Source: Flectobacillus major DSM 103 (GTDB taxonomy: Bacteria > Bacteroidota > Bacteroidia > Cytophagales > Spirosomataceae). Taken from it: a DNA stretch of 64,000 nt. The notes below the pieces were generated by a model. It had not been told where the DNA came from. It searched no databases and was given only the letters and a program-made list of their open reading frames with translations. The DNA lies in assembly GCF_000427405.1 (NCBI RefSeq), contig NZ_KE386491.1:3729812-3793811 (forward strand). The letters are read 5' to 3'. This document shows positions 2,882 through 59,376 of the stretch, piece after piece. A program made the translations under genes and the position numbers. Each line of letters starts with the position of its first letter. Position 1 is the stretch's first letter.

Positions 2882-3802
2882 TTAAAGGGTTAAGTAGGGA
2901 AGTATTTTTTGGAAGGTTTTTTCATCTAATAATTTCACTGCTAATAAATCTTTGAAGGATTCAAATTTTCCGTGTTGATTTCGGTAATTGATGATTGCTT
3001 TTGCTATGTAAGGTTTTAAATAAGGATGTCGAAATTGTTCGAATGAAGATTCATTAATATTAATTTTTATTGTACTAGGGTTCTTTAGTGTTGCATATTT
3101 CTTTACTTCTTGTATTACTGCAGAATCTAGGCCGTACACTTCGTAGAGTTGGTCGATGGCATAGAAACCTCCTAACATATCTCTATATTTAATAATGCGT
3201 TGAGAAAGCTTACTGCCTATTCCTTTTAGTTTTATTAGGGTTGTGGTATCGGCATGATTCAAATCAAAGCTTGTAATAACGGGCTTGGTCTGAGTAATAA
3301 CCTTTAACTTATTATTATCGATAGCCTCTGATTGTGGAATCGTAATGTAAGGTTCTAATTGCAAATAGAGTTCTTCGGGAAAACCATAGATTTTCTTGAC
3401 ATCAGCTTTTTTACGGAAAATACCACCACTATTACGGTACTTCTCTATTCGTTTTGCTAACCAAAGAGGTATTCCTAATGCCGATAGGGCATCAACCGAA
3501 GATTCATTCGGATTGAAGTCATGTAATTGAATTACTTTTATGACCTCAGAATGCTCATTTTTAAAACTATTTGAATAGCTTTTCTGAGGTTTATCCACAA
3601 GTTCTAAATGAGCTAAGATTGTTTTCACATTTTGTTTGTCGATTAATAAAGAAGAACTTTCTTGTCTGGTGTTTATTTGCCATATAATAAAATGGCTAGT
3701 TACTAACACTATAAAGAGGAATATCATTACCAAAAAGCCTTGCATTTCGATTTTAGTGAAGCCAAAAAAACTTTGAATGTAGAACTGAATTTTCTCTTTC
3801 AT
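2882..3802 (-). CDS. Membrane-anchored helix-hairpin-helix (ComEA-like) protein
   Basis: The protein has about 306 residues. A single transmembrane segment near residues 20-42 (GFLVMIFLFIVLVTSHFIIW) is followed by a periplasmic or exposed region with several HhH modules: VDALSALGIPLWLAKRIEKYR, DTTTLIKLKGIGSKLSQRI and SFEQFRHPYLKPYIAKAIINYR. HhH repeats of this spacing occur in ComEA-type DNA receptors and in the Bacteroidota helix-hairpin-helix domain family. I infer non-specific DNA binding, perhaps in DNA uptake, but no competence genes other than comF (23 kb) are near. I chose the ATG at 3800-3802; a longer frame to 3850 begins with TTG and adds 16 unconvincing residues. Confidence 0.75.
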   Translation of the reverse strand: MKEKIQFYIQSFFGFTKIEMQGFLVMIFLFIVLVTSHFIIWQINTRQESSSLLIDKQNVKTILAHLELVDKPQKSYSNSFKNEHSEVIKVIQLHDFNPNESSVDALSALGIPLWLAKRIEKYRNSGGIFRKKADVKKIYGFPEELYLQLEPYITIPQSEAIDNNKLKVITQTKPVITSFDLNHADTTTLIKLKGIGSKLSQRIIKYRDMLGGFYAIDQLYEVYGLDSAVIQEVKKYATLKNPSTIKININESSFEQFRHPYLKPYIAKAIINYRNQHGKFESFKDLLAVKLLDEKTFQKILPYLTL

Positions 3803-7338: not shown

Positions 7339-8406
7339 TTAATGATTTTTGACTATTATATCTTCGGTTTTTCCGTTTGAATAAATGTATTGGAGTTCTA
7401 CTTCAGGGTATACATTTTCTTCTAGTAGAATAAAGTTACCTAATTCGGTCATTTTATCGTTATCAAATTTTCCTGCGAAATATTCGCCATCTCTAAAATA
7501 AAATACACCTCGACCGTGACGAACGCCATTTTGGTATTCGCCTTCATACATTTTACTTCCATCTGCATAATAATGAATTCCGAACCCATGACGTTTTCCA
7601 TTTTTCCACATTCCTTTATAGCTTCCTTGTGTTTTGTGGATAAAATACCCTGTACCATTACTACAGTTTCCTGAAATACAGCCTAGTTGTACACTTTTGT
7701 TAGTAACTTCTGGCTCTATTGTGGATAATTCAAGGGGGTCTTGAGGTTGGGGTATTATACTATTTTCTTGAGGCGTTTCAGCTGTATATCTTGTATCCTT
7801 TCTTTTTTCTTCTTCCCAGCCTTTGGCAATAGCTGCAAGACGCTGAGAGCGTGGAGGGTGGGTACTTGTCCATGTCTCTTGCTGAAAATGGTTCATCGCT
7901 AATTGGGCTTCTTCAAGGGTGGCACCCATTCGGTATAAACACGCTCCTGAAAATTCATCGGCTTCGAGTTCTTTTTTATGTTGGCTTCCTTGATTATTGG
8001 TAGGGTGATAGTATACTAAGTGCCCTACTTCATGAGCTAAAATCGATATAGCAGCCCAGTCTTTGCTAGTAATCTGTTCTACGCGACTCAAAAAGTTTTT
8101 ATCATATATAATATGTGGAACGCCCTCTATTAATGTAGCATAGCAATTATCGGTTTCGGGACATTCTATCATTTTGAAAGGATTTCGAGATAGGTTCATA
8201 GACTCTGTAATTTTCTTAACCACCTTCTCGGCTCTACCTGTAGACATATAGGCTTGGGTTTGTAGGCTGCTACATATATCTGTATTTTTAACAGCTTTGC
8301 CAAAATAATGGCATATAAATACCTTTGGAGGAGTTTGTGCTTGAGTGGTGTGTAAAGCCAAACACAATAGAGATAGACAGAGTAATCCTATGCTTGAAGG
8401 TTTCAT
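7339..8406 (-). CDS. Secreted M48-family zinc metallopeptidase with C-terminal MORN repeats
   Basis: The protein has 355 residues. A signal peptide covers about residues 1-24 (hydrophobic LLCLSLLCLAL, TQAQ cleavage). The peptidase core has the zinc site ILAHEVGHLVYYH (HEVGH 125-129) and the downstream ELEADEF (146-152), which supplies the third ligand, as in M48/Ste24/HtpX-like soluble proteases. After a linker, residues ~250-330 hold MORN repeats (GSYKGMWKNGKRHGFGIHYY, YEGEYQNGVRHGRGVFYF, YFAGKFDNDK). The export signal suggests a periplasmic or outer-membrane quality-control role, but this is inference. Several TTATCCACA DnaA boxes lie inside and beside the gene (7635, 7720, 8476). The fusion of M48 and MORN is unusual. 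Confidence 0.82.
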   Translation of the reverse strand: MKPSSIGLLCLSLLCLALHTTQAQTPPKVFICHYFGKAVKNTDICSSLQTQAYMSTGRAEKVVKKITESMNLSRNPFKMIECPETDNCYATLIEGVPHIIYDKNFLSRVEQITSKDWAAISILAHEVGHLVYYHPTNNQGSQHKKELEADEFSGACLYRMGATLEEAQLAMNHFQQETWTSTHPPRSQRLAAIAKGWEEEKRKDTRYTAETPQENSIIPQPQDPLELSTIEPEVTNKSVQLGCISGNCSNGTGYFIHKTQGSYKGMWKNGKRHGFGIHYYADGSKMYEGEYQNGVRHGRGVFYFRDGEYFAGKFDNDKMTELGNFILLEENVYPEVELQYIYSNGKTEDIIVKNH

Positions 8407-8481
8407 GGAAGTATTTGATTGAATTTACAGATGCTTTGTAAAGTTTATTCATTCAAAATTCCCTTCTTGGTTGGCTGTGGA

Positions 8482-8513
8482 TAAAAAAGAAGGTCTGGTA
8501 CAGACCTTCTTCA
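8482..8513 (-). terminator. Terminator after the TPR gene
   Basis: AAGAAGGTCTG (8487-8497) pairs with CAGACCTTCTT (8501-8511) around a GTA loop, with a T run downstream on the minus strand. It directly follows the TPR gene's stop and abuts a DnaA box at 8476-8484. Confidence 0.85.
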
Positions 8514-8528
8514 ATACGAATTATAGTA

Positions 8529-10358
8529 TTAGTTTATTGTGTCGCCACGAAGATTTCTAAATCTTTTTCTAGCCTCAGAGCCAAATATACTTCCAGGATA
8601 TTTGGTTAAAAGCTCTTGATACAGTTTCATGGCTTTTGAAAATTCATTCTTTTTTTCTTGGTAGGTCTTGGCAAGAAGAAATAAAGCATCGTCGCCAAGG
8701 ATGTCGGAAGGGTACTTATCCACAATTTTTTCTAATTGTTGAATACCTGCATCTATATTACCTTCTTTTAAATAAGTGCTTGCCATTAGATACAAAACTT
8801 CGTCTTCGAGTGGGTGTCCTTTGTGGATAACTAACATTTCTTTCATTTTGGCTATGGCTTCATCATTTCGATGCTGAAATAATAACAGCTCAATATTGGC
8901 ATAATCTTGCATAGCTACTTCATTGCTATCTAAACCCGTATTATCTTGTATTAATAAGCTCAGATTCATTGCATCGTTGGCTATTTCTCTTGTTGTAGCC
9001 TGTTTTAGAATATCTAATACCTCTTTGGCCAAATCAAAATCACCTTTATAATAGGCTAATTTTGCATTTCGTAGCTTTGCATCATACCCTAGTGGGCTAT
9101 CTTTCTGTGATTTTTCTACTTGTGAATATAATAAGGTAGCTTCCCAAGGCTCTGATTTCAAAATATAGATATCTCCTAGGTCTAGTTTGCACTTATCCAC
9201 AAAGAGCCTATCGCCTGTGGATAACTTTATAGCCAACTCTAAAACAGCAACCGCCGTATCTTTTTCGTTTAGGTAAAACGCATATAATAGCCCTTTACTT
9301 CTCATAGCTTCAAGGGTTCGTTGATTAACGCCTAGTTCGTTCAACAATTTGGTGTATTCGTTGATAAGAATTCTAATATCATTTCGATTCACTGGATATG
9401 TGTTTTTTACGACTTCTTCTTTAGAGTTTATCAACAATCTTCGCCAAAGTGGATAATTCTGTAATTTGGGATATTCTCTTACTAAGTATTCAAATATCTT
9501 TCCTGCATTTAAAAAGTCTTTATTTTGGTAGGCCACAAAACCAAGGTCGGCCACCTGAGCTCCTTCACGTTTGTAACGCTTGTCCATAGCTCGTGCTTGT
9601 ACAAATGCCTTGAAGAATTCTTTCTTTTGGGTAAGGTGCCAAATGAGCATTTCATTGTAATAAGGTTCATCAGGAAACTTCTGTACATAATTGTACAAAA
9701 CCTTTTCCAATACCTCTATTTCTTTGTCTTCTTTGACTTCATCTTGTAAAATAGCCTGAAGTAGCTCACGGTTTTCGATAGGATGTCCAAAATTTAGGTA
9801 TTCCTCAAGCATTTCTTGAGGTTTACCAAGCAGTCGGTACAACCTCCCTACTTGGAGGGCAAACTTGCTCTTATCCTTGAAGTATGCTCTATTTTGCTCT
9901 ATCAATTGTATAGCTAAATCGTATTGGCTTTGGTTTGTGAGTTCACTAACCAACTGCATCGTTAAGGCATCATCTATCTTGGCTTTTTCAAAAGCCATAT
10001 TAAATTGTTTTTGAGCTTCGTCTTTCTTCTCAATAAACGTTAATAGCTGAGCATAATCAATGATATAAATTGGATTATTTTCAGACCATTTGATTTGCTT
10101 TTTCAAAAACTTTTCTGCTTCCGAAAAATCTTTAAGCTTCACCAAGGTTTGTAAATAGGCTTTGTGGATACTTTGTGCAGATTCTTTATTTTTTGCCAAT
10201 TTTTGAAAAATAGCTTTTGCCTTTTCATATTCTCCAGCTTTGACATATTCTAAACCCAGTTCAGCATCTTGAGCTAAAGTTTTCAAAGTGACTCCAATCA
10301 GACAGGTTACCAACAACAATATTCTTAACGATACCAATTTTAGATGCTTCATATTCAT
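8529..10358 (-). CDS. Exported tetratricopeptide-repeat protein
   Basis: About 609 residues from ATG 10356-10358 (another ATG follows two codons later). The frame opens 19 codons earlier, but only the later start gives a normal signal peptide (LVSLRILLLVTCLIGVTLKTLAQ). The mature part consists of helical repeats of TPR type, e.g. GLEYVKAGEYEKAKAIFQKL near the N terminus and VLYLMASTYLKEGNIDAGIQ and ALFLLAKTYQEKKNEFSKAM near the C terminus. The last repeats resemble the Bacteroidota YfgC/BamD-like periplasmic TPR proteins. It probably scaffolds an envelope complex; no partner can be named. Five exact DnaA boxes occur within or beside it, and the putative origin lies immediately upstream. Confidence 0.8.
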   Translation of the reverse strand: MNMKHLKLVSLRILLLVTCLIGVTLKTLAQDAELGLEYVKAGEYEKAKAIFQKLAKNKESAQSIHKAYLQTLVKLKDFSEAEKFLKKQIKWSENNPIYIIDYAQLLTFIEKKDEAQKQFNMAFEKAKIDDALTMQLVSELTNQSQYDLAIQLIEQNRAYFKDKSKFALQVGRLYRLLGKPQEMLEEYLNFGHPIENRELLQAILQDEVKEDKEIEVLEKVLYNYVQKFPDEPYYNEMLIWHLTQKKEFFKAFVQARAMDKRYKREGAQVADLGFVAYQNKDFLNAGKIFEYLVREYPKLQNYPLWRRLLINSKEEVVKNTYPVNRNDIRILINEYTKLLNELGVNQRTLEAMRSKGLLYAFYLNEKDTAVAVLELAIKLSTGDRLFVDKCKLDLGDIYILKSEPWEATLLYSQVEKSQKDSPLGYDAKLRNAKLAYYKGDFDLAKEVLDILKQATTREIANDAMNLSLLIQDNTGLDSNEVAMQDYANIELLLFQHRNDEAIAKMKEMLVIHKGHPLEDEVLYLMASTYLKEGNIDAGIQQLEKIVDKYPSDILGDDALFLLAKTYQEKKNEFSKAMKLYQELLTKYPGSIFGSEARKRFRNLRGDTIN

Positions 10359-10857
10359 ATATCTCAATTTTAGGATTCTCGAATCATTCTTTTTCCAACT
10401 TTGACTTTTCAACACAACATTAATTTAATAATATTTATTTTTTAAATTTTTTAAAAGAAAAGAAATCTACTATTCTTATTATGCTGTGGATTTGTGGATT
10501 ACTTTCGTGGAAATTTTTTTTTCACGTTCAAATGTTCATAAGTATTTTTTTATACACATTAAAATAGGTATTTATTAACTATTAACTATTTGATTATTAA
10601 TTAATTAACATTAATGGATAGTTATCCACATCCTTAGTGTGTGGATAAACAGCCTATTTTTGATGTGTGCTTATTTCGGGGATAATTGTGGGCAATGTAC
10701 TGTATAACTTGTATAGTTATGCACGTTGATTAAAGCTAGAATATTGTTTCCACAATGTCTTAAATTCTATCCACAATTTTTGTACCTATTTTTGGGGTAC
10801 TTATCCACACTTTTTCCCTATTCATTCACGTGTTTTGGGGAGTTATCCACAGCAATA
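10359..10857. other. oriC: Candidate replication origin (oriC): AT-rich region with DnaA-box cluster
   Basis: This is a 499-bp stretch without a convincing gene. Its right part holds exact DnaA boxes at 10622-10630 (+), 10640-10648 (-), 10801-10809 (+) and 10843-10851 (+). One-mismatch boxes lie at 10493 (TGTGGATTA) and 10767 (CTATCCACA). Directly left of the first pair is a very AT-rich tract (10550-10615) with the direct repeat ATTAACT-ATTAACT and TTAATTAATTAACATTAA, suitable as an unwinding element. A further exact box is just inside the next gene (10958). mnmG lies 3 kb away and a 16S operon 10 kb away, both common near origins. No dnaA gene is in the window, so the call rests on the boxes and the AT tract. 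Confidence 0.65.
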
Positions 10858-12507
10858 CTACTTTTCACCGATTTGGAAGTCAAAACCCGACAATTCAAAG
10901 TTCTGTTTGAGCTTAATCTTGTCTTTTATGTACATAATATCTTCGGGAAGTATGTTTTTATCCACATTTCCAGCATCCCATCTTTGATTTTTGTTATCAT
11001 CAACGATTAATCGTATCATATATATACCAGGCTTGACAAAATCGAAGGTATAACTACTGGTGTTATTGTGGATAACTTGTCGTTCTACTTCTTTTTTCTC
11101 GTTGAGAAGCTGTACGATAAAGTTTTTATTGTGTGGATTAGTCACTTTACCCTCAATAAGGCCATAATTTTCGGGATCTCTGATAGGGTTAATTTGTTTA
11201 ATCACTTTATTGGTATCGTTTTCCACAGAGATAAAGCTATTGGTTGGAATTGTAATTTTGACTACCTCTTTGGCTTTAGGGGCATTATCTATTTTGAATT
11301 TCAATTCTGTTTTTTCGTCATTCCATTGTAGATAACTTTCTTTCAGTTCTACTTTTTTGAGGGTATCGTTCAGTATTTCGATTTTTGAAATGTCGAATGT
11401 TTTGATGGGTTTACTAAAAGTGATTTTATAGCCAATCTCTTTTAAATCCACATCTTTTCCATTTTGTGGATAAATGTCGTATTTGAAATCATCTTTGATA
11501 CTTTCTTCTTTTTTAGCTTTTATCTTGAATTTGATTTTTTGACTGAATTCAAAGCTTCTATCAAGTGAATCGATTACAATTAAATTGACTTTGGTGGTAT
11601 CTGTGGATAAGTTTCTAGTATTAAATATTCTTAACTGATTCGCCTCGTTTTGTTGATAAGTCAGGCTGTCGGATGGTTGAGCAAATTGAATCTTTGCTTT
11701 TTTTATCCCTCTATTGAAATCTATATAATAGTACGAAGAAGTTGCACGAGTTTTTAGAATCTTAACGGGTGAGTTATCCACTTTGGCTAAGTTGATATTG
11801 AGGTTACTTAAATTTTTGGTAAGCAGGATTGTGTCTTTGATAATACCGATTTTTTCTTTTGTTTCCTCATATAATAGGTTGTTATTCACATCGGTAATGG
11901 CATATACTCTATATTTTCCAGTAGCAATATTTTCTATTTTAAAATTGCCACTACTGTCGGTTTTGGTAAAATAGTAAGGTTTTATTTTGGCTGGTCGCAG
12001 CGTGTCGGAGTATTTATAAAGCCCCACAGTAGCATCTAGTACACCTTTGTTTTCGATAAGGTCTTTTACATTTCCCTCTATTTTCAAAGAATCAATCGTT
12101 GAGCCAGTACTAAAAACGATTCTGATATTTTTGGCGGGATTTCGTTCGGTAATATCTTTAAAAGCTTCTCTGAAATTAAGACTATAGGTAGTACTATCTT
12201 TGAAGGGCTCTTCAAAAGTTAATCTAACACCTTTGGGAAGATTTTTGGAATTATAGAACCCCTCGATTGCAGGAGTTATCAACAATTGTTGTTGGATATT
12301 GTCGACATTGATGTATTCGTCAAATTGTAGTTCAATGATTTTGCCTTTGAAATTCTTGGTTTGATTTTCGGGAAAGCTTTTAACCAATTTAGGAGACAGT
12401 GTATCTTTTTTACCGCCTGTAGGTGCTACTACCTGTGCACAACTAAATAACATTTCTGTTATTATGAATCCGAGAAAAGTTATCAAGACTATGTTAATTG
12501 CTTTCAT
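10858..12507 (-). CDS. Lipoprotein with bacterial Ig-like (Big_5) domain
   Basis: 549 residues. The N terminus is a lipoprotein signal with lipobox MLFSC (C23) followed by AQVVAPTGGKKDTLSP, a hallmark opening of a conserved Bacteroidota lipoprotein family. Residues ~38-115 match the Big_5/SbsA Ig-like pattern (PKLVKSFPENQTKNF, IELQFDEYINV, ITPAIEGFY, LTFEEPFKDSTTYSLNF). Next comes a carboxypeptidase-regulatory-like segment (GNFKIENIATGKYRVYAI, near 185-205), and the protein ends with a second such segment (YTFDFVKPGIYMIRLI). It is probably on the outer membrane; the role is unknown. Exact DnaA boxes at 10958, 11067, 11465 and 11602 lie inside the coding sequence. The upstream intergenic region (12508-12728) has a second box cluster. 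Confidence 0.82.
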   Translation of the reverse strand: MKAINIVLITFLGFIITEMLFSCAQVVAPTGGKKDTLSPKLVKSFPENQTKNFKGKIIELQFDEYINVDNIQQQLLITPAIEGFYNSKNLPKGVRLTFEEPFKDSTTYSLNFREAFKDITERNPAKNIRIVFSTGSTIDSLKIEGNVKDLIENKGVLDATVGLYKYSDTLRPAKIKPYYFTKTDSSGNFKIENIATGKYRVYAITDVNNNLLYEETKEKIGIIKDTILLTKNLSNLNINLAKVDNSPVKILKTRATSSYYYIDFNRGIKKAKIQFAQPSDSLTYQQNEANQLRIFNTRNLSTDTTKVNLIVIDSLDRSFEFSQKIKFKIKAKKEESIKDDFKYDIYPQNGKDVDLKEIGYKITFSKPIKTFDISKIEILNDTLKKVELKESYLQWNDEKTELKFKIDNAPKAKEVVKITIPTNSFISVENDTNKVIKQINPIRDPENYGLIEGKVTNPHNKNFIVQLLNEKKEVERQVIHNNTSSYTFDFVKPGIYMIRLIVDDNKNQRWDAGNVDKNILPEDIMYIKDKIKLKQNFELSGFDFQIGEK

Positions 12508-12611
12508 GTGTATATGTTGAAAACTTTGTTGATAAACGGTGTTAATGTGTATAACTTTTGGTTTATCGTGAGTATTGTTTTAAAATGAACGATATATGAT
12601 ATTTTTTATCC

Positions 12612-12651
12612 ACAAAAATAAACCCTCGATGATAATTATTCATCGAGGGTT
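12612..12651 (-). terminator. Terminator after the methyltransferase gene
   Basis: AACCCTCGATGA (12621-12632) pairs with TCATCGAGGGTT (12640-12651) around a 7-nt loop. On the minus strand it is followed by a T-rich tract (TTTATTTTTG) that overlaps a DnaA box at 12606-12614. Confidence 0.88.
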
Positions 12652-12728
12652 GTTGATAATTCTGTTGATAAGTCAAATTTAGCATTTATTTTTAGGAAGC
12701 CATCTATCTATTTCTGAATTAACACTAA

Positions 12729-13722: not shown

Positions 13723-15585
13723 TTATCGTCCCATGAATACCATTAAAACTGATATGTCTGATGCCGATACACCACTGATACGAGAAGCTTGTCCGATAGT
13801 AGCGGGTCTGATTTTGCTTAGTTTTTGTCGTCCTTCAATTGAAATTGCAGAAAGTTTTCCATAATCAAAATCTTGAGGAATAGATAGGTCTTCTAATTTT
13901 TGAAGTTTATCGACCATCTGTTGTTCCTTTTCTATATAGCTTTCGTATTTAACATTGATTTCGGCCTGTTCCAATATTTCACTATCAAATTGTTCTAAGA
14001 AGGTAGTAATATCTTGGCTTAGACTTTTGATATTTTCAAGATTGACATTGGGTCTTCTTAATAAATTCAATAAAGTAGTACCTTCTTTCAATCGAGCTGT
14101 TCCTAGAGCTTCTAGTTGGTCGTTGACATCGTCGGGTTTTACTTTTTTGAATTTTAGCTCATTGACAAGTTGAGCTGTTTTTTCTTTTTTGTTTTTTACC
14201 TTTTGTAATCTTTCGTCCGAAGCTAATCCTATAGTATATCCTTTTTCTGTTAGACGAATATCGGCATTGTCTTGGCGAAGGAGCGTTCTGTACTCGGCTC
14301 TTGAAGTAAACATACGGTATGGCTCTTCTGTACCTTTGTTGATAAGGTCGTCGATAAGTACGCCAATGTAAGCTTCAGAACGAGACAAAACAAAATCTTC
14401 TTTGTCTTGAGCTCTTTGATGTGCATTTATTCCAGCCATTAATCCCTGACAAGCAGCTTCCTCATAACCTGTAGTTCCGTTGATTTGGCCTGCAAAGAAA
14501 AGATTCTTGATTAATTTTGTCTCTAAAGTTTGTTTTAACTGGGTTGGAGGGAAATAATCGTATTCAATTGCATAGCCCGGTCTAAACATTCTTACGTTTT
14601 CAAAACCTGGAATTTTTTTCAAAGCAGCATACTGTACATCTTCAGGCAAAGACGTAGAGAATCCATTAACATATACTTCTACTGTATTCCATCCTTCAGG
14701 TTCTACAAAAATCTGATGTCTTTCTTTTTCTGCAAATCGATTAATTTTATCTTCTACCGATGGGCAGTATCTTGGGCCAAGGCCTTTTATTCGTCCTGCA
14801 AACATTGGTGATTTGTCGAAACCTGTTTTTAACACATCATGCACTTCTTGGTTGGTATAGGTAATCCAACAGCTTCTTTGCTCATTTAAGGGTTTTGTAT
14901 CTAAATAGGAGAATTTAGCAGGATTTTCGTCGCCTTTTTGTTCTTCCATTTTTGAATAGTCGAGGCTTCGGCCGTCTACTCGTGGAGGAGTACCTGTTTT
15001 CATTCTGCCAGCTTCAAAGCCCAACTCTACAAGTTGTTCGGTAATACCAGTGGCTTTTCCTTCCGCTGTGCGGCCGCCACCAAAATTCTTTTCACCAATA
15101 TGTATTAAGCCATTGAGAAATGTACCATTGGTAAGAACAACCGATTTTGCTCGGAATTCTATCCCTAATTGTGTTTTTATTCCTATAACCTGATTATTTT
15201 CCACCAATAATCCCGAAACCATTTCTTGCCAGAAATCAACATTAAGGTTTTGTTCTAATGCCAAACGCCATTCTTCAGCAAACCTCATGCGGTCCGACTG
15301 GCACCGAGGAGACCACATAGCTGGCCCTTTTGAGCGGTTTAGCATTCTGAACTGAATCATGGTTTTGTCAGAGATAATTCCCGACATACCACCTAGTGCA
15401 TCTACCTCTCTTACGATTTGTCCTTTGGCAACACCACCCATTGCAGGATTACATGACATCTGTGCAATGGTGTTCATATTCATTGTAATCAACAATACTT
15501 TTGAACCCATTGTTGCGGCTGCATGAGCGGCTTCGCATCCTGCATGCCCTGCACCTACCACTATTACATCATAGTTATTATACAT
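13723..15585 (-). CDS. mnmG: tRNA uridine-5-carboxymethylaminomethyl(34) synthesis enzyme MnmG (GidA)
   Basis: This FAD enzyme works with MnmE to modify the wobble uridine of several tRNAs. The 620 residues match the family. It shows the dinucleotide-binding motif VVGAGHAGCEAAHAA (9-23), MSCNPAMGGVAKGQIVREVD (~43-62), the GidA signatures GPRYCPSVEDKI and AGQINGTTGYEEAA, and the conserved C terminus KLSKIRPATIGQASRISGV. The ATG at 15583-15585 gives the expected N terminus. mnmG lies next to the origin in many bacteria, and here it is 3 kb from the DnaA-box cluster. mnmE is not in the window. Confidence 0.97.
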   Translation of the reverse strand: MYNNYDVIVVGAGHAGCEAAHAAATMGSKVLLITMNMNTIAQMSCNPAMGGVAKGQIVREVDALGGMSGIISDKTMIQFRMLNRSKGPAMWSPRCQSDRMRFAEEWRLALEQNLNVDFWQEMVSGLLVENNQVIGIKTQLGIEFRAKSVVLTNGTFLNGLIHIGEKNFGGGRTAEGKATGITEQLVELGFEAGRMKTGTPPRVDGRSLDYSKMEEQKGDENPAKFSYLDTKPLNEQRSCWITYTNQEVHDVLKTGFDKSPMFAGRIKGLGPRYCPSVEDKINRFAEKERHQIFVEPEGWNTVEVYVNGFSTSLPEDVQYAALKKIPGFENVRMFRPGYAIEYDYFPPTQLKQTLETKLIKNLFFAGQINGTTGYEEAACQGLMAGINAHQRAQDKEDFVLSRSEAYIGVLIDDLINKGTEEPYRMFTSRAEYRTLLRQDNADIRLTEKGYTIGLASDERLQKVKNKKEKTAQLVNELKFKKVKPDDVNDQLEALGTARLKEGTTLLNLLRRPNVNLENIKSLSQDITTFLEQFDSEILEQAEINVKYESYIEKEQQMVDKLQKLEDLSIPQDFDYGKLSAISIEGRQKLSKIRPATIGQASRISGVSASDISVLMVFMGR

Positions 15586-58560: not shown

Positions 58561-59376
58561 TTAAAAAATAATCACTTTGCCAAGCACCAATGAAGTATTC
58601 CCAAAGCGTAGTTCAGACGGTTTATCAAAAGATTTGAATTGCCAGTCAATTCCTAATCGCCAAGCTGTTTGGCGGAGCGAGTGTTTGGCATTGGGTTTAT
58701 TCTTAAAAGCAAAATCAAAGTACGTTTTATTCTGAACCAATAAAAAATGATTGAGGCTACCCACATAAATGTATTTTCCTAAGTTGCGGATTAACTCTTC
58801 TTTAAAGTAGGCATCATGGGCATACCCCGAGCGTCCCAATACACTAATAATAGGAATATTAAGGGTATTTTGGAATAAAATAGGATATTGCAAAACACTA
58901 AAGCTTTTGGCATAAACAAGTGCCAAACCAATATGCGAGCCTGCATCTACCGACACCTCGTTGTTGCCATAGCCAAGTTTGTATATATCCGACACACGCG
59001 AGGCAAAAGCAAGGTTGGCAAAGCCTCCTATATACAATGAAGAGCTAGGCTGTTGAACAACTTGGTAGTGTTGGGCATAGTGTAATTGAAACTCAAAACT
59101 CCATATTTGCAGTGTTCGGGAGGTTTGTGGAATACCTAAACGAAGTGTGGATAACTTTGTGGATAACTTTTTGCCTTTTTTAGCATTATAGCTCATTTCT
59201 GCCCCAATTGAGGGTAATTGATACCTAATTGGGCTTAAAAAATTGTCTCTAAACGTTGTAGAGCCTATTTTTAATAAAAAAGCCTTAGATTGGGAAAATG
59301 GAAGTGTATCAGCCGAAATTTGTGCATAACTTCTTCCTAGACTACCACAAAGCAATAAAAACAGTACAAATCTCAT
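58561..59376 (-). CDS. Putative outer-membrane beta-barrel protein, unknown function
   Basis: 271 residues. Signal peptide (FVLFLLLCGSLGRSYAQ). Alternating-residue strands and a C-terminal aromatic (VLGKVIIF) suggest a small barrel. I do not recognise a family. It heads a two-gene operon with the S41 peptidase. Two exact DnaA boxes 12 bp apart (59146-59154, 59158-59166) are in the coding sequence and encode a repeated KLSTKLST. Confidence 0.65.
   Translation of the reverse strand: MRFVLFLLLCGSLGRSYAQISADTLPFSQSKAFLLKIGSTTFRDNFLSPIRYQLPSIGAEMSYNAKKGKKLSTKLSTLRLGIPQTSRTLQIWSFEFQLHYAQHYQVVQQPSSSLYIGGFANLAFASRVSDIYKLGYGNNEVSVDAGSHIGLALVYAKSFSVLQYPILFQNTLNIPIISVLGRSGYAHDAYFKEELIRNLGKYIYVGSLNHFLLVQNKTYFDFAFKNKPNAKHSLRQTAWRLGIDWQFKSFDKPSELRFGNTSLVLGKVIIF

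Follow-up and report, generated by a model that had tools for sequence, protein, structure and literature searches.

A 5-kb array of DnaA boxes very probably marks the chromosomal replication origin of Flectobacillus major

A 64-kb stretch of the Flectobacillus major DSM 103 genome (NCBI RefSeq assembly GCF_000427405.1, contig NZ_KE386491.1), hereafter the window, contains a 5-kb cluster of DnaA boxes that is very probably the chromosomal origin of replication (oriC) of this member of the Cytophagales (Bacteroidota). The window corresponds to C6:3729812-3793811 of a 5,432,081-bp contig. Coordinates given without a contig name refer to the window, and G, C, and L numbers are our handles for genomes, contigs, and loci. 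A first-pass annotation of the window had proposed a probable origin region here, and the proposal is borne out by a change of skew sign, by a box cluster that is kept in place in relatives, and by a conserved module of the unwinding type. Location, skew, module, box excess, and a gradient of boxes around the locus are all read directly from the DNA. It is likely, judging from these features, that the locus combines oriC with flanking and dispersed boxes that serve as early-replicated sinks for DnaA.

The DnaA-box cluster

The window holds 20 exact TTATCCACA/TGTGGATAA sites. Sixteen lie within 7635-12614, and the remaining four are at 3591, 41409, 59146, and 59158, a recount that agrees with the earlier tally. 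Dinucleotide shuffles of the window contain 0.52 exact boxes on average and 2 at most, and none of 100 shuffles reaches 20. Sites with at most one mismatch to the box number 63, against 19.7 expected. The density of the cluster, 16 exact boxes in 5 kb, is far above chance.

The whole genome contains 94 exact boxes in 6.22 Mb, including the 16 of the cluster, and 81 copies of a reversed control pattern, the box read backwards. A genome-wide scan for similar densities, suggested in the first-pass annotation, finds no other group of more than three sites by spacing. One three-site group, at 3562542-3562649, has a fourth site about 1 kb away.

Ten of the 16 cluster boxes lie in the coding frames of three genes (2 + 4 + 4) and six are intergenic, so the earlier statement that most boxes are inside three protein genes holds. 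The dense intergenic centre previously placed at 10.48-10.96 kb is indeed AT-rich. Its limits need correction: the intergene spans 10416-10857, and box 10958 falls inside the next gene.

Skew and the position of dnaA

GC skew was sampled in 10-kb samples at 100-kb steps. The sampled skew is negative from 2.2 to 3.73 Mb, with a single exception (+0.017 at 2.5 Mb), and positive from 3.76 Mb via the contig end to ~1.64 Mb, with mixed signs at 1.68-2.16 Mb. The sign changes at the locus, and the cumulative minimum of the samples falls at the window.

Within the window, the cumulative curve is almost flat between 10 and 40 kb (-991 to -980, minimum -1055). Skew at fourfold sites corrects for gene strand. 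It is -0.31 in the 11 minus-strand genes at 12.7-40 kb, nearer to lagging than to leading genes, and -0.18 in the six plus-strand genes, the latter similar to the -0.20 of leading genes on the right. The reference values are -0.30 (left) and -0.24 (right) for lagging genes and -0.13 for leading genes on the left. The 12.7-40 kb segment is thus better placed to the right of the origin, and the change point fits the cluster, although the contrast on that side is modest. Two other origin positions, the raw skew minimum at 26.4 kb and the switch of gene orientation at ~36-40 kb, are rejected by the fourfold-site skew, and neither has a box group.

The dnaA gene is located at C6:562-1047, at the start of the contig and ~1.7 Mb from the locus on the inferred circular form of the contig. 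Its product carries a GGRDHST signature, which we take to be typical of the DnaA box-binding domain. The 110 kb at the beginning of this contig and the 41 kb at its end contain no exact box; with none nearby, an origin beside dnaA is rejected. Numbering a genome from dnaA would put oriC in the wrong place here.

The two replichores measure ~3.3-3.6 and 1.8-2.1 Mb, and a short block of negative skew is present at 1.68-1.72 Mb. Two further scans are uninformative: parS gives 0 matches in the genome with an assumed B. subtilis-type consensus, and a promoter scan gives 30 sites against 24 in shuffles.

The intergenic core and a putative unwinding module

The putative core of the origin is the intergene between the TPR-repeat and Big_5-domain genes (Table 1). 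Two head-to-tail boxes at its TPR-proximal end are followed by a short spacer and a trio-like repeat. Read along the minus strand from 10501 to 10467, the order is TAATCCACA-AATCCACAG-CA-TAATAAGAATAGTAG, with an AT tract following. An AT-rich candidate unwinding element (10425-10475) sits next to the tandem boxes. A second AT-rich stretch in the core (10560-10620) is 87% AT. The tandem boxes, the short spacer, and at least three trinucleotides of the form.A. agree with the sequence rules for a basal unwinding system (BUS) given in PMC8287927.

Table 1. Features of the probable origin region (window coordinates)
Feature	Position	Strand	Details	Basis
M48-peptidase/MORN gene	7339-8406	-	exact boxes 7635, 7720	Pfam
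Exact box between M48/MORN and TPR genes	8476-8484	-		box scan
TPR-repeat protein gene	8529-10415	-	exact boxes 8716, 8822, 9193, 9216	Pfam
DnaA box in TPR gene	9193-9201	+	coded by F-V-D-K	conserved in several genera
Intergenic oriC core (putative)	10416-10857	.	73% AT; exact boxes 10622, 10640, 10801, 10843	
AT tract adjoining the trio, probable unwinding element	10420-10475	-	10425-10475 is 90% AT	
Trio-like repeat	10467-10481	-	TAA TAA GAA TAG TAG, 2 nt past second box	layout as BUS, PMC8287927
Two head-to-tail DnaA boxes, platform of putative unwinding module	10484-10501	-	TAATCCACA + AATCCACAG	sequence reading
Big_5-domain (Ig-like) protein gene	10858-12507	-	exact boxes 10958, 11067, 11465, 11602	Pfam
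Intergenic flank	12508-12728	.	exact box 12606 and four near-boxes around a terminator-like hairpin (12621-12651)	box and hairpin scans
mnmG (gidA), syntenic origin-region marker	13723-15585	-		Pfam GIDA

The module is conserved. Among six aligned sequences, the second tandem box is identical in five, G008 being one base off, and the first in four, with G001 and G002 each one base off. The module pattern was scanned in 96 loci (the window and 95 relatives; L212 was wrongly treated as a duplicate, probably owing to N runs, and is excluded) and matches in the window and in 26 of the 95 distinct relatives' loci. The matches in relatives lie in the intergene, 225-509 bp past the 3′ end of the Big_5 match, with one additional match in L114. 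The pattern has 0 matches in 856 kb of background samples from the F. major genome itself.

Conservation in relatives

Named relatives of the Big_5 protein were taken as the best 80 of 550. The closest of these are an unclassified Cytophagales bin, Arcicella, Siphonobacter, Rhodocytophaga, Emticicia, and Runella. A box group at the 3′ end of the gene recurs in many genera across the order among the 80 named loci, and in four congeners the aligned box positions in the intergene and at its edges are held. The position of the cluster is conserved in relatives, with a minority of loci devoid of exact boxes.

G007 has its Big_5 gene at 4.32 Mb, 2.3 Mb away from the box cluster at 6.62 Mb. The box-rich intergene lies between a TPR gene, identified by tblastn, and methyltransferase- and mnmG-like genes, and a DUF4175-like gene is also there; the methyltransferase, mnmG, and DUF4175 neighbours were assigned by inspection of the sequence. 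The cluster has kept its TPR and mnmG-like neighbours, so the origin seems to have stayed while the Big_5 gene left. The skew of G007 is noisy and passes from negative to mostly positive at ~6.62 Mb. Its Big_5 gene (L212, L213) aligns in two pieces.

Boxes in the flanking genes

The coding boxes exceed what codon usage predicts. Synonymous resampling, with usage taken from the other window genes and 500 runs each, yields expectations of 0.05, 0.13, and 0.28 exact boxes for the M48/MORN, TPR, and Big_5 genes, and shuffling of each gene's own codons yields 0.03, 0.24, and 0.40; the observed numbers are 2, 4, and 4. In sum, 10 boxes are found against 0.46 or 0.68 expected, respectively. Nineteen of 21 other window genes tested contain none, one has 1, and one has 2. 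The TPR gene may in fact start at an internal ATG. Protein repeats as the source of the coding boxes are rejected, since these boxes use several reading frames and both strands.

Twelve of the 13 sequences that share VDK, the window counted as one, have box 9193 in exact form. Across 15 chosen sequences, window included, it ranks top among 370 overlapping codon windows, whose median identity is 0.23. The protein alignment comprises 16 proteins (without L011, L017, L015, L020, L021, and L023-L031). A wider set is less favourable, with the box exact in 13 of 21 distinct relatives' VDK loci. The other eight are one congener, with one mismatch, and every Dyadobacter locus with VDK (seven), in which different codons stand for valine or aspartate.

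Among the four congeners, box 9216 is exact in all, 10958 and 11067 in three each, and 8716 in one, and the loci of the congeners carry 11-16 exact boxes. On these alignments, the array as a whole is a trait of the genus, within which single sites turn over.

In the Dyadobacter loci L123, L125-L128, L154, and L157, all exact boxes (3-6 each) lie within 415 bp of the Big_5 end. The re-coded FVDK and the confinement of boxes to the core possibly reflect a trade-off between core and flank.

A gradient of boxes around the locus

Outside the cluster the chromosome has 72 boxes, of which 47 are no more than 750 kb from the locus (p = 3e-11); extrapolation of the density far away would give ~10 there. 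Of the reversed control pattern, 13 of 66 sites fall in this range. Box density is 43 per Mb at 100-250 kb, then 34 and 18, and finally 5-8 per Mb past 750 kb, with 5-7 per Mb at distances above 1 Mb. It is graded towards the locus beyond what composition predicts: in sampled DNA, all 1680 permutations of the box have a mean near/far ratio of 0.95, that is, no bias, and composition is not supported as the cause. TTATCCACA shows the strongest near-origin bias of the 910 permutations with at least eight sampled copies, with 13 copies near (4 in the window) versus 1 far (p = 1e-4, uncorrected for the 910 permutations). The permutation samples exclude L091, which overlaps, and C7 stretches.

Two draft congeners have 80 and 51 boxes per Mb (20 and 8 boxes) on the remainder of the contig that bears the origin, against ~16 elsewhere. 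Twenty-eight boxes at 20 origin-side places were inspected individually; 17 are in open frames, in several frames, and 11 are between them.

Proposed function and alternative explanations

An origin combined with DnaA titration, one of the options raised in the first-pass annotation, fits the locus well, and the grading of boxes over hundreds of kb argues for titration. DnaA binding, unwinding, and a titration role are proposed from established knowledge of DnaA. DnaA would bind the tandem boxes at 10484-10501, spread from there across the trio-like repeat and into the adjoining AT tract (10420-10475), and open the duplex, with the other core boxes (10622-10851) supporting assembly. Boxes within the neighbouring genes, together with those scattered more thinly across ~0.75 Mb on each side, would replicate early and capture DnaA right after initiation, and this capture would delay re-initiation. 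A stronger version is tentative and, in our judgement, somewhat doubtful: selection may have written a DnaA-titration gradient into the origin-proximal genes of the genus, with timing set mainly by passive, early-replicated sinks.

Several observations weigh against an origin flanked by sinks. The cumulative skew plot that had been recommended as a check agrees in its sampled sign change and minimum; the raw cumulative minimum over a contiguous 250 kb, on the plateau at 26.4 kb, is displaced by ~16 kb from the core. On the right, leading and lagging genes differ little in fourfold-site skew (-0.20 vs -0.24). The replichores are unequal, with a skew maximum at ~1.64-1.94 Mb that is not opposite the origin, perhaps owing to a recent rearrangement. 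Three of 20 relatives' loci (G017, G021, and G024) lack exact boxes, as does the core span in 17 of the 80 named loci, among them loci from Pedobacter, Rufibacter, and Pontibacter and some truncated ones. The flanking boxes turn over: 7720, 8822, 11465, and 11602 are exact in none of the four congeners, and one box present in all four is missing here. The control pattern is itself uneven, being densest far from the origin. The gradient is weaker or non-significant in other complete genomes from the family or order (G024, p = 0.002; G006, 0.008; G007, 0.049; G028, 0.086; G033, 0.16), and the assumed origin is not where boxes are densest in G028 and G033. Finally, the gene at 58561-59376, distant from the cluster, holds two boxes against 0.01 expected, which indicates that a box pair can arise by chance or from other causes.

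The last of these points, the lack of conservation of several flanking boxes, and the seven Dyadobacter loci with re-coded FVDK and exact boxes confined to the 415 bp at the Big_5 end are also what one would expect if the locus were an ordinary oriC whose coding boxes are relics or by-products without a role of their own, left for instance by near-boxes that drifted through mutation in AT-rich genes. This explanation is unlikely. The coding boxes are ~20-fold more numerous than under synonymous resampling, when 19 of 21 other window genes have zero, and they are found in several frames and on both strands. Box 9193 is moreover the best-conserved codon stretch among those tested, and the excess extends over hundreds of kb and is specific to one 9-mer.

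The first-pass annotation had alternatively suggested a bipartite origin. In such an origin, two functional box groups, at 10.5-10.9 and 12.5-12.7 kb, would loop together around the Big_5 gene, an arrangement that could coexist with an origin flanked by sinks. Two local concentrations of boxes do exist. The near-boxes described earlier at the second site are present, TTATCAACA at 12527, 12651, and 12663 and TTATACACA at 12546, together with exact box 12606. Near-boxes 12527 and 12546 are retained in G001-G003 and 12651 in all four congeners, congener G004 has four exact boxes at this end, and two Arcicella loci have one each. However, a scan of the second group for the unwinding-module pattern finds no match, its sites are mostly near-boxes that vary between congeners, and an exact box at this end is absent from the majority of the 80 named loci. 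In G007, the box-rich intergene remains beside the TPR and mnmG-like genes although the Big_5 gene is 2.3 Mb away. A bipartite origin is accordingly improbable, the four exact boxes of G004 notwithstanding.

It is just as improbable that the flanking boxes form an element of the datA/DARS type, altering the nucleotide state of DnaA instead of acting as a passive sink: boxes are dense near the origin, and paired or triple boxes with conserved spacing recur nearby, but the genus has no fixed compact arrangement, and boxes turn over across 5 kb.

Comparison with known systems

An origin with flanking sinks resembles several described systems. The BUS, consisting of tandem DnaA boxes and DnaA-trios, occurs in B. 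subtilis and many bacteria (PMC8287927). The module described here shares its two head-to-tail boxes, the distance of 11 nt from the first box to the trio, the trinucleotides with a middle A, and the AT-rich DNA that follows. It differs in that the trio repeat is short and degenerate (five units), and in that dnaA is not nearby.

In E. coli and Salmonella, DnaA boxes are enriched near the origin (PMC12371093), with a density peak around oriC that exceeds permuted motifs and persists when oriC is left out. That study mainly used a broader motif set, whereas here a single exact 9-mer rises ~6-8-fold from far to near, and 16 sites, including 10 in coding DNA, are packed into 5 kb. In B. subtilis, joint removal of the oriC-proximal DnaA-box clusters (DBCs) leads to early initiation (PMC5295017). 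Several box clusters outside oriC are common to both cases, but in F. major the array runs unbroken for 5 kb through the flanking genes and is accompanied by a gradient. In E. coli, the datA and DARS loci decrease or restore active DnaA through clustered boxes (PMC5835720, PMC5295017). Clustering is the similarity; those loci are compact, non-coding, and away from oriC, and no compact element is shown here.

A literature search covering titles and abstract openings, with subscription papers largely outside it, found no Cytophagales oriC with a flanking box array. Work on an oriC plasmid of C. hutchinsonii has reportedly been done. Origin-proximal box enrichment is already known from E. coli and B. 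subtilis, and titration of DnaA is the best reading of the spread seen here. Judged by these searches, what is new is the clade, how strong the gradient is in a single exact 9-mer, and an array that runs through flanking coding DNA.

The locus would place the oriC of a Cytophagales genome far from dnaA, and the conserved unwinding-type module may aid origin finding across the order. The initiator-titration model predicts that synonymous loss of the coding boxes shifts initiation timing with the proteins and the core origin untouched. If that model is true here, the Dyadobacter relatives, with core-confined boxes and no flanking array, would turn the clade into a natural experiment on titration.

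Paired and triple boxes outside the cluster

Two exact boxes 12 bp apart lie at 59146-59166, in a coding frame that reads LSTKLST, and an equally spaced pair is present on the origin-bearing contig of G001. On the same chromosome, L233 (C6:3977974-3978009) has three boxes within 36 bp, in an intergene ahead of a gene whose product presumably resembles UDP-GlcNAc 2-epimerase. The sites of this triple group (3977974/3977989/3978001) have the spacing of a group in G004 (C7:107176/107191/107203), a match in spacing only.

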